Assembly: GCF_900184735.1 (NCBI RefSeq)
Contig: NZ_LT855385.1
Span: forward strand, 93,132 to 157,131
DNA length: 64,000 nt
Direction of reading: 5' to 3'
From: Paucisalibacillus globulus
GTDB lineage: Bacteria; Bacillota; Bacilli; Bacillales; Amphibacillaceae
The notes below the pieces were generated by a model. The model worked only from the letters and a program-made list of their open reading frames with translations, made no database searches and was not told where the DNA came from. The position numbers and the translations under genes are program-made. Below are positions 1 to 44,805 of the stretch, in pieces. Position 1 is the first letter of the stretch, and each line of letters begins with the position of its first letter.

Positions 1-541
1 GTGTCTACCTTGCCGCGGGCGGCTGGTGAGCCTCGGGCCAACAGGATGTTGGTCACAAAGGCGTTGCCTCAGGATGAGGCGTTCCTAGCCTTTGAACCCC
101 TATTTTGCTCTTGCGGGGTCTCACCGAAGCCTATCATCCCGCAGGACAAGGTACGCTACGAAAGCGATACATCGCACGCAGAAAAAGTGATTTTCTTTTT
201 CAAGGAGTCTCCGTGTATTTCCTTCGCTGGTGTTGAGTGGTTTAAATCAGCACACAGACTTTATAAATTAAGTTGAATAGCTATCTTTTTTAGAGAACTA
301 AACTAGCGCAGGCAGAATACGGAGACTCCTCGAAAATAAAGAGCAATTTTCTTCGTGCGATGATTATGCTGCCGAAGCCTTCCTTGTCCTGCGGGAATAG
401 CACGTGTCCGAAGACCCCGCAGAGGCGGGTTTTCCTCGAGGAGGCTGAGGCCTGGCCCGTGGAAAGCGGAGTATTCTGCCGGAGCGGTAGCATTAGGCTT
501 CACCATTTTAAATAAGGTTAAGTTACCTCACAGTTTCTATC
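1..541. repeat. Composite paired-palindrome element, locus 1 (left end cut by window)
   Basis: This is the long variant of a family with three more copies in the window. The right module has perfect 10-bp arms, GGCAGAATAC (311-320) and GTATTCTGCC (471-480). The left module ends with GTGTATTTCC (213-222). The right terminus, TTACCTCACAGTTTCTATC (523-541), matches the terminal repeat of the other copies. Both modules carry an extra domain of about 60 bp absent from the other copies (about 147-203 and 330-389). The left module also holds a further hairpin domain at about 35-99. No credible gene lies here; the open frames across it are by-products of GC-rich palindromes. Confidence 0.85.
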
Positions 542-6202: not shown

Positions 6203-6465
6203 CTGTAATTAAAAAACGCCCATCCCTCTGCATACATTTGCAAAGGGACGAGCGTTGGTCACGTGGTTCCACCCTAATTTCCGTTAACATAAAACGGCTT
6301 AAATCTTTAACGCAGATTTACGCTACTATCTACTTAGAGTTTTCGGTAGTAGAGTTCAAAGGTGGTAATCATTTGGCTGTATGTGGAAGCTTTCACCACT
6401 AGGCTTCCCTCTCTTGGCATTACAGGATTCAAATGACCATGTCCTTATCGTTACAGATAAATATA
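6203..6465 (-). promoter_or_regulatory. T-box riboswitch (Thr) upstream of thrS
   Basis: On the minus strand the T-box core GGGTGGAACCACG (6262-6274) precedes a terminator hairpin (6211-6256) followed by a T-run. About 90 bp further upstream, the sequence GATTACCACC (6361-6370) offers ACC, a threonine codon, in the expected specifier-loop position. Stem I lies at about 6375-6465. Uncharged tRNA-Thr should pair with both sites and favour antitermination. Confidence 0.93.
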
Positions 6466-12126: not shown

Positions 12127-12189
12127 CCTCTAATACGGACTTGTTAAATATACTTAGGTTGTTTTCATATAGATTGCTGCTATTTAATT

Positions 12190-12575
12190 AAAAATGTGGG
12201 GTAATTCATTTAAGAAAATAGTGTTAGTATACCGCTTCGGCAGAATACTCCGCTTTCCGCTGGCGACTGGTGAGCCTCCTCGCGCTATCTTCTTTAGGGG
12301 TCTCACCAATGCCTATCCTCCCGCAGAGTCTCCGTATTCTCCCTACGCTAGTACACGTTTCTATACAAATGATTTTTAAATTGTATAAAAATAAATTAAC
12401 ACTCAATCCTAGCGCAGGAAATACACGGAGACTCCTACGGGAATAGCACGTGTCCGAAGACCCCGCAGAGGTGATCTTTCCTCGAGGAGGCTGAGGCCGT
12501 GCCCGTGGAAAGCGGAGTGTATTTCCGTAGCGGCTATGTTGCACCCAAAATAAATTATTAAACGCACAGTTCCCC
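12190..12575. repeat. Composite paired-palindrome element, locus 2
   Basis: The left module has arms GGCAGAATAC (12239-12248) and GTATTCTCCC (12334-12343) around the GGTGAG/CTCACC core (type alpha). The right module has perfect arms GGAAATACAC (12417-12426) and GTGTATTTCC (12517-12526) around the CACGTGTCCGAAGACC core (type beta). The outer terminal repeats are degraded compared with loci 3 and 4, so this copy looks older. Apart from it, the terminator at 12090-12126 and about 60 featureless bases, the 12002-12636 gap is empty of genes. Confidence 0.88.
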
Positions 12576-12636
12576 TATCTACTATAAGTTAAAAACTAGC
12601 CAGAAAAACAATACTCTTTTCTAAAACAGCCTATAC

Positions 12637-13089
12637 TTAAAACTTAATGACATATAATAAATACGAAACCAAGAGGCTGAGCCATTGGACAGTTGCAAAC
12701 AGAAATATTGTTTCCAGTGTATAGTTTGGGTCACTTAACAGTAATAACATTAAAATCGGAATCATCAAGATAGACAGTATACCTGTAACGATTAAACTTT
12801 TTGCCAGGATACTAACCTGATATTCATCGTACTTTTTCTTTCGCTTCATGATAATGATAACAATAATTACAATAGTTAAAGCGATAATAATATATCCTAA
12901 AAATCGCATATTACCAGTAGCGATAAAATCAGACCATCCATTCCAAAGAGTTGAATTTAGGGTTCTAGCGTGTGACAGTAAGCTTACAAATTCCATATGA
13001 CCAGCGGTGAAGATATAAATAAACGAATAAAAAATTGATAATAAGCTAATAAAGACAATATTAACAAGAGGCTCCTTTAACAATTTCAT
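12637..13089 (-). CDS. Four-TM membrane protein paired with an XRE regulator
   Basis: 150 residues with four predicted transmembrane helices (about 9-29, 62-82, 95-115, 125-147) and a basic cytoplasmic loop (MKRKKKYDEYQ). No family was recognised. Its ATG overlaps the regulator's TGA stop (ATGA), so the two are translationally coupled. Small XRE-plus-membrane-protein pairs are common in Firmicutes; their functions are mostly unknown. AGGAGAGTG precedes the ATG. Confidence 0.72.
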   Translation of the reverse strand: MKLLKEPLVNIVFISLLSIFYSFIYIFTAGHMEFVSLLSHARTLNSTLWNGWSDFIATGNMRFLGYIIIALTIVIIVIIIMKRKKKYDEYQVSILAKSLIVTGILSILMIPILMLLLLSDPNYTLETIFLFATVQWLSLLVSYLLYVIKF

Positions 13090-17680: not shown

Positions 17681-18097
17681 TAGAAACTGTGCGGTAACTA
17701 AGCATTATGGTAGCGCATCATACCCGCTACGGAAATACACTCCGCTTTCCGCGGGCGGCTGGTGAGCCTCCTCGCGCTTACGCACTGCGGGGTCTCACCG
17801 ATGCCTATCCTCCCGCAGGAGTCTCCGTGTATTTCCTTCGCTAGTGTGGAGTGAAATAATTTCAATGCACTCAACACCAATACAAAAATCATTTACTACT
17901 ATAAATTAGAAAGCTTAAACTAGCGCAGGCAGAATACGGAGACTCCTACGGGAATAGCACGTGTCCGAAGACCCCGCAGAGGCGAACTTTCCTCGAGGAG
18001 GCTGAGGCCGTGCCCGTGAAAAGCGGAGTATTCTGCCGGAGCGGTATCATTCCTCCATACTGAATAATTTTAGAGAGTACTTACCGCACAGTTTCTA
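17681..18097. repeat. Composite paired-palindrome element, locus 3 (best-preserved copy)
   Basis: 417 bp bounded by perfect 16-bp inverted repeats, TAGAAACTGTGCGGTA (17681-17696) and its complement (18082-18097). The left module (type alpha core) has arms GGAAATACAC/GTGTATTTCC (17731-17740, 17827-17836). The right module (type beta core) has arms GGCAGAATAC/GTATTCTGCC (17928-17937, 18028-18037). An AT-rich spacer of about 90 bp separates them. It fills the gap between polA and phoR; 17540-17680 shows nothing else recognisable. Confidence 0.92.
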
Positions 18098-29013: not shown

Positions 29014-29444
29014 GATAGAAACTGTGCTTTAACTAAGTATTTTGGATAGAGCATCATACCCGCTACGGAAAAACACTACGCTTTCCGCGGGCCCGGCCTC
29101 AGCCTCCTCGAGGAAAGTTCACCTCTCTAGGGGTCTTCGGACACGTGCTATTCCCGCAGGAGTCTTCGTGTTTTTCCTTCGCTAGCATGTGTGTCAATTT
29201 ATTACTCCGAATATTTAATATAGATAATCAACTAATAGCAGACATCTCTCAATAGAAGAATTCACTAGCGTAGGCAGAATACGGAGACTCCTGCGGGAGG
29301 ATAGGCATAGGTGAGACCCCTAAAGAAGATAGCACGAGGAGGCTCACCAGCCGCCCGCGGAAAGCGGAGTATTCTGCCGGAGCGGTAATCGTTCCACTAT
29401 CCTCTTTTAAAGGGTTAATAGTACGTTACCGCGCAGTTTCTATC
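29014..29444. repeat. Composite paired-palindrome element, locus 4 (core order swapped)
   Basis: Bounded by 18-bp inverted repeats with three mismatches (29014-29031, 29427-29444). The left module has arms GGAAAAACAC/GTGTTTTTCC (29067-29076, 29168-29177) and a type beta core. The right module has arms GGCAGAATAC/GTATTCTGCC (29273-29282, 29369-29378) and a type alpha core. In loci 1-3 alpha is on the left, so the cores are exchanged here. The A changes in the left arms are matched on both sides, so pairing is preserved. No flanking direct repeat is obvious. Confidence 0.92.
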
Positions 29445-44633: not shown

Positions 44634-44805
44634 AATACTCCCACCTTTACCTTGATTTTTTTGTATTATGTTAAGACAATGTTGTTGTCGGTTGCACTAG
44701 TTACTCCTGACTATCCAAGTGCCCAGATACGGATAATCAATCATTGTATCCTACATAAGTCCTACAATCCAATTATAAAACATAATTAGACATATTTCTA
44801 TATTA

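Follow-up and report, generated by a model that had tools for sequence, protein, structure and literature searches.

The four repeated loci of the window, by which the whole analysed stretch of 64,000 nucleotides from Paucisalibacillus globulus is meant, are most probably (at roughly 0.8) copies of an IS1595-derived MITE whose interiors have been exchanged by ectopic gene conversion and whose paired modules have stayed unlike through the loss of palindromes. The element is related to a known transposon family, and a MITE that is related to IS1595 and has an 8-bp duplication has been published (PMC3852290, in the part available). Throughout, G, L and C numbers label genomes, loci and contigs, respectively, G000 being the own genome (3.92 Mb, 23 contigs) and G007 and G001 those of two related species. 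A protein of the window shares 90% identity with one of Paucisalibacillus sp. EB02 and 76-84% with proteins of P. globulus and two Ornithinibacillus species, which would place the window in that group.

The family consists of non-coding elements of roughly 500 bases (about 420-560 bp), whose proposed plan runs from an end X through the inverted repeat T, a linker, a module, a spacer, the facing module, a second linker and T' to an end Y. All four loci to which the earlier note had ascribed one shared plan are present as it described them. The T-to-T' units that it delimited hold, while the full element is longer and runs past T to GGCTGTTTTC-type ends (12157-12631 for locus 2); similarly, the two modules that it placed at each locus are present and face each other, with the correction that they are of two unlike kinds, P and G, one of each per facing pair. 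The features are the following:

1..541, no strand: element 1, of which the right part is present, comprising an insert-bearing G module, a spacer, a P module that has an inner insert, and T'
38..104, minus strand: Rfam RF01690 Bacillaceae-1 hairpin, replacing the apical loop of the element 1 G module (66.3 bits, gathering score 35)
12149..12156, no strand: left copy of the 8-bp target duplication TATACTTA, element 2
12157..12631, no strand: element 2, full length, 475 bp, with GG(C/T)TGTTTT-type ends, by the end pattern
12232..12349, minus strand: G-type module of element 2, arm B
12411..12533, plus strand: P-type module of element 2, arm A
12632..12639, no strand: right copy of the 8-bp target duplication TATACTTA, element 2
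17681..18097, no strand: element 3, T-to-T' unit, with decayed outer ends farther out
17681..17700, plus strand: T, left inverted-repeat copy of element 3
17724..17842, minus strand: G-type module of element 3, arm A, GGAAATACAC
17843..17921, no strand: AT-rich spacer of element 3, 79 bp
17922..18044, plus strand: P-type module of element 3, arm B, GCAGAATAC
18078..18097, minus strand: T', right inverted-repeat copy of element 3
29014..29444, no strand: element 4, T-to-T' unit, missing from the orthologous gap of G007
29060..29183, minus strand: P-type module of element 4, arm A variant, GGAAAAACAC
29267..29385, plus strand: G-type module of element 4, arm B

Element 1 is truncated by the window start and its beginning lies to the left of the window. 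The modules are about 118-124 bp long, and each has matching inner and outer arms, mostly of type A (GGAAATACAC) or B (GCAGAATAC). Only two mechanical ORFs of 80 aa or more overlap the four window elements, one of 91 aa at 1-276 and one of 106 aa at 12224-12544.

The family is genome-wide. The covariance-model search for which the earlier note had asked, run with a model (R1) built from 46 modules, gives at least 150 matches in the own genome, far beyond chance, and a 27-base P-module string has 70 genome matches with up to three mismatches vs 0 for its reversed control. The census sequence combines the loci from the P pattern, R1 and the end pattern with the window itself and a 400-kb part of contig 3, and contains 199 cores (95 P, 104 G) that form 84 facing pairs, a lower bound from loci chosen partly by their modules, the R1 loci being among the matches listed. 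All 84 facing pairs join one P and one G, in the contig order P-G in 44 and G-P in 40, and no P-P or G-G facing pair occurs among these surveyed own-genome pairs. The remaining 31 cores (20 G, 11 P) stand unpaired, and two same-strand G-G neighbours are seen. From left to right, arms and cores are laid out as A-G/B-P in 36 pairs, B-P/A-G in 35, A-P/B-G in 8 and B-G/A-P in 3, with 2 incomplete or odd. According to rough ORF picks, the 82 pairs whose gene context could be placed lie in 53 co-directional, 21 convergent and 8 divergent gaps, so that divergent gaps look avoided.

A sample of 464 kb picked without regard to module content gives the balance between pairs and singles: 13 facing pairs stand beside 4 decayed single remnants of the same frame, 1 weak orphan and 4 elements with G modules only, set in a second frame, GAGGCTGGGACA...TGTCCCAGCCTC. 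In the first frame the facing pair within linked inverted repeats is supported, as all 84 pairs face each other and T is recognised on the left in 74, on the right in 80, on both sides in 72 and on at least one side in 82. The obligate two-module arrangement of the earlier note is not supported in general, given the single-module elements of the second frame and the decayed singles of the first. The second frame with a single G-type module, sometimes with an internal duplication, is found at C3:12100, C3:341087, C3:362325 and C3:382653 of G000 and also at L058 and L060; variants of it occur at L052, L056, L057 and L059, and L040 carries a P-type module in a similar frame.

T has a consensus of about TTGATAGAAACTGTGCGGTAAC and a major-allele frequency of ~0.9 among copies picked with up to four mismatches in 14, a choice that favours its conservation, vs 0.4-0.5 for the sequence just outside T and 0.46-0.60 for the linkers. 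Its linkage to the modules, also proposed earlier, is borne out by the 464-kb sample, in which 27 of 29 T matches (up to four mismatches in 18) have a core no more than 400 bp away; the remaining two carry 4 mismatches each, and about 6 matches are expected in shuffled sequence. Gene conversion alone leaves the conservation of T beside variable linkers unexplained, and selection may act on T.

The mobile origin is indicated by the ends of the elements, by their target duplications and by their relatives. Better-kept copies reach beyond T to terminal GGCTGTTTTC repeats, which come in an X and a Y form; end matches number 24 in the own genome vs 1 for the reversed control, and the strict end pattern is found in 30 of 159 family genomes, with 0 matches of the reversed control. 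Element 2 has identical flanks, namely the 8-bp duplication TATACTTA on both sides, and a second 8-bp duplication of the own genome, TAAAACAA, belongs to the element at C2:22241-22733; for element 4, inspection by eye gave no clear duplication, and the ends of most copies are too decayed to show one. Both ends are recognisable, with up to 7 mismatches of 23 at each, in only 9 of the 84 own-genome pairs, and the flanks of these nine agree at 8/8 positions in 1, 7/8 in 2, 6/8 in 1 and 5/8 or fewer in 5, vs 1.3%, 2.5% and 5.1% for 8/8, 7/8 and 6/8 when flanks are re-dealt; one more own-genome element, with a weaker end, has 8/8 flanks. The target duplications are AT-rich and some are nearly single-base runs. 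Two other genera provide perfect 8-bp flanks in 5 of 8 elements with both ends found (L213; L215-L218), a count from which L221 and L231 were excluded for a second end with 7 mismatches; three of the five, L216, L217 and L218 of G123, are two-module elements.

Moreover, similar ends enclose transposase genes. At L212 (G156), the two ends lie around 1,466 bp and are flanked by TTAATGAA twice, a perfect 8-bp duplication; the 336-aa protein encoded between them matches PF12762 (63.6 bits) and NF033547, the IS1595 family transposase (208.7 bits). L232, in G004 of the same genus, contains a 342-codon open frame (PF12762, 68.9 bits) and likewise has perfect 8-bp flanks, ATAATTAA on both sides. At both loci the two ends are similar to X and Y as the better-kept elements have them, and a motif search found no T, P core or G core in either of them. 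As IS1595-family transposons of the same genus and family share the ends and the 8-bp duplications, the elements are identified as IS1595-type MITEs. Judged from sequence, an IS1595-type transposase acting in trans would have moved the element by its GGCTGTTTTC ends and left the 8-bp duplication, and the outer ends would have decayed after insertion. No transposase gene was found inside the elements: the window elements overlap only the two mechanical ORFs given above, and a PF12762 search of the whole own genome gave no match to an IS1595 transposase in a draft assembly where lost repeats could hide one; together with PF12762 matches at E 0.001 or better in only 10 of 61 related genomes, this makes present mobility here doubtful. 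In the comparison of orthologous gaps for which the earlier note had asked, G007 has no element where elements 2 and 4 lie; the G007 orthologue of element 3 is present and collapsed between the two outer arms. Empty gaps, 8-bp duplications and ends common with IS1595-family transposons favour the non-autonomous mobile element among the identities that the note had offered.

G007 and G001 contributed 21 module loci, of which 12 could be placed on surveyed G000 sequence by both flanks and 1 by one flank; 8 are unmapped, and the matching G000 sequence may simply lie outside the surveyed part. Among the 12, G000 lacks the element at one site (L261 vs L065) and two hold only partial elements (L248, L257). 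Flank alignments of orthologous loci are mostly 80-92% identical. The other nine orthologous loci were compared with G007 or G001, and the arrangement is kept at one of them (L249/L127); the whole interior is reversed at three (L242/L179, L253/L155, L259/L082), cores are swapped between arms at two (L245/L143; L034/L172, with one L034 module lost), arms are swapped at two (L244/L207, L256/L141) and one is mixed (L251/L131). Orthologous spacers are 0.53-0.64 identical in seven of eight loci and 0.71 in one, vs 0.54 for shuffled spacers, 0.64 for all within-genome pairs and a median of 0.89 for the nearest paralogue.

Within the own genome, 42 element pairs, not independent of each other, among 68 elements with both linkers read share spacers at least 93% identical, and both linkers match (at least 80%) in 7 of them, one in 16 and neither in 19; linker A is rather alike in all copies (background identity 0.75, vs 0.64 for linker B), so that the 80% line separates it poorly. 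The outer flanks of the same pairs average 0.57-0.59 vs a background of 0.57-0.58, with two single values near 0.8. Relative to ends X and Y, interiors lie in the two orientations 17 and 11 times among 28 elements with both ends typed, end Y being scored in 9% of random sequence. These mosaics fit repeated exchange between dispersed copies, with putative breakpoints in the modules and T. Ectopic gene conversion among the copies is the best reading of the sequence patterns: such homologous exchange would keep interiors alike, with the modules and T as homology islands, and would produce mosaics of either orientation in which the linkers, the spacers and the outer flanks are newly combined. Precise copying of a T-to-T' cassette cannot be the sole mode, since spacers are shuffled independently of linkers.

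The modules of a pair are unlike in every case measured. Random pairs have identities of 0.93 (P-P) and 0.91 (G-G), and P and G are 74% identical; within pairs, identity ranges over 0.66-0.76 for 37 of the 84 own-genome pairs and over 0.48-0.80 for 13 pairs taken from other genomes, and near-identical modules are never met among these 50 (48-80%). Same-type pairs do occur in 3 of the 13 (L050, L224 and L221, typed by motif and by eye), and they are divergent. Collapsed or centre-deleted copies are also found. An exchange that made paired modules alike would produce a long near-perfect palindrome prone to collapse, and most simply the modules of a pair stay unlike because such palindromes are probably lost. 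A distinctly unlikely alternative takes the T-to-T' unit as a self-maintaining cassette for which old transposon shells serve as docking sites of copied interiors, and the unlike P/G pair as a two-part structure under selection, for a bound host factor or an RNA function, rather than the outcome of palindrome instability alone.

The modules are covarying hairpins. An alignment of 62 modules, drawn from the window as well as from other genomes and fitted to the structure, has 97.0% of its cells paired vs 81.0% when shuffled, changes on both sides in 22 of 33 base pairs, and pairing lowered to 37-49% when partners are slid. The structured RNAs among the earlier proposals thus stand as far as hairpin and covariation go; the modules may act as RNA or as DNA. 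Modules conserved as structured RNAs by function, with the element mainly as their vehicle, are an unlikely explanation. In its favour, the covariation is strong, similar modules recur in two different frames and R1 matches 54 of 61 genomes (own included, up to 58 candidates scored per genome), the Bacillaceae-1 RNA hairpin is plugged into some modules, and the element 3 modules fold as RNA better than shuffles (z -2.8 to -4.7). This last holds for both strands, however, and any transcript would necessarily carry one of the two paired modules in antisense. G.U pairs, moreover, are rare and only mildly ahead of A.C, with 28 vs 13 of about 1,940 cells in alignment A2 and 16 vs 7 in alignment A3 (95 distinct own-genome modules), one constant column being left out of each, and covariation in DNA inverted repeats can also come from template switching between arms.

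A dedicated site-specific recombinase that recognises T and inverts or exchanges the T-to-T' unit is very improbable. It would account for a T that is sharply conserved and inverted, for interiors reversed at three orthologous loci with unchanged flanks, and for the flanks of L244 and L207, alike up to T on both sides; yet the spacers of the reversed loci are no more alike than those of copies at different loci, and breakpoints fall inside modules too, as in the 19 of 42 pairs with near-identical spacers and neither linker shared. In-place inversion at T, which the reversed interiors had suggested, is rejected on the same spacers: orthologous ones do not exceed the different-locus average (0.64) in 7 of 8 loci, the 3 reversed included, so a simple flip in place does not account for the reversed loci. 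It is scarcely credible that these are REPIN-like elements mobilised by a RAYT (REP-associated tyrosine transposase). Two facing palindromic units and a RAYT gene in the own genome (L032; NF047646, 82.8 bits, cut-off 80) recall them, but that gene is flanked by a different repeat, GTGCCTGTCACTCCCC, with no P/G core or T in its 3.3-kb locus, and the 8-bp duplications and IS1595 ends point elsewhere. The gene lies at 1300-1863 of L032 (G000 C22), between inverted GTGCCTGTCACTCCCC repeats that form a separate repeat family. Other candidates were set aside as well: IS200/IS605-type and RAYT enzymes occur once each in the genome, neither locus having a P or G core or T; the ISL3 family has no PF01610 match in the own genome; and membership among REPINs by short REP units, of 20-40 bp in the part of PMC3733652 available, is at odds with modules of about 118-124 bp.

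Facing pairs are present in other genera too, and the modules accept further hairpins. Bacillaceae-1 can plug into P and G modules at their apical position and is independent of them elsewhere: it is found in 44 of 61 genomes, including some where R1 gives none (66 vs 0 in G043), and among 20 loci judged by eye, two of these 20 off centre, it lies inside a P- or G-like module in about six (L101, L105, L107, L108, L114, L117). Among the window elements, only the hairpin of element 1 exceeds the gathering score. Two further insert hairpins sit at fixed places of the module, in the inner arm (with GTGCGATG) and the outer arm (GGTAGACACTG...), at about 325-392 of the window, at C3:64132 and C3:259364 of G000, and at L012 and L016. 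Elsewhere in the window, Rfam matches above gathering scores are a T-box leader (6241-6460), an L20 leader (2812-2935) and a c-di-GMP-II riboswitch (44677-44758).

The MITE reading indicates a mobile origin for a hairpin-repeat family widespread in Bacillaceae, and the mosaics show a bacterial repeat family evolving in concert. The facing modules offer a natural test of how similar two facing repeats may get before they are lost, and the Rfam family Bacillaceae-1 is suggested to live partly as a plug-in of such repeats.

No published description of the facing P/G element was found in the open-access literature as far as surveyed, and several known systems share parts of it. Bhal-1 and Bcr1 are likewise intergenic Bacillus repeats with stem-loops, but measure 74 and 167 bp vs about 420-560 here, a comparison made by description only (PMC2267715, in part). 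The Bacillaceae-1 RNA (RF01690; PMC2864571, in part) supplies the hairpin at the apical position of the element 1 G module, with similar placements elsewhere; this plug-in of about 67 bases is distinct from the module and is found without modules too. REPINs, as far as the part of PMC3116915 at hand describes them, also consist of two facing palindromic repeats and a spacer, with paired forms better kept than singles, whereas the present modules belong to two unlike kinds and measure about 120 bp, the own-genome RAYT is unassociated with them, and ends and 8-bp duplications are of the IS1595 type. IS1595-family MITEs (PMC3852290, in part), such as the ISHwa6-related one of H. walsbyi (165 bp, 7 copies, IR 25, DR 8), share ends matching an IS1595-family transposon, the 8-bp duplication and the lack of a transposase gene; the elements described here differ in their size of about 500 bp, their second inverted repeat T, their two large facing hairpin modules and their mosaic interiors.
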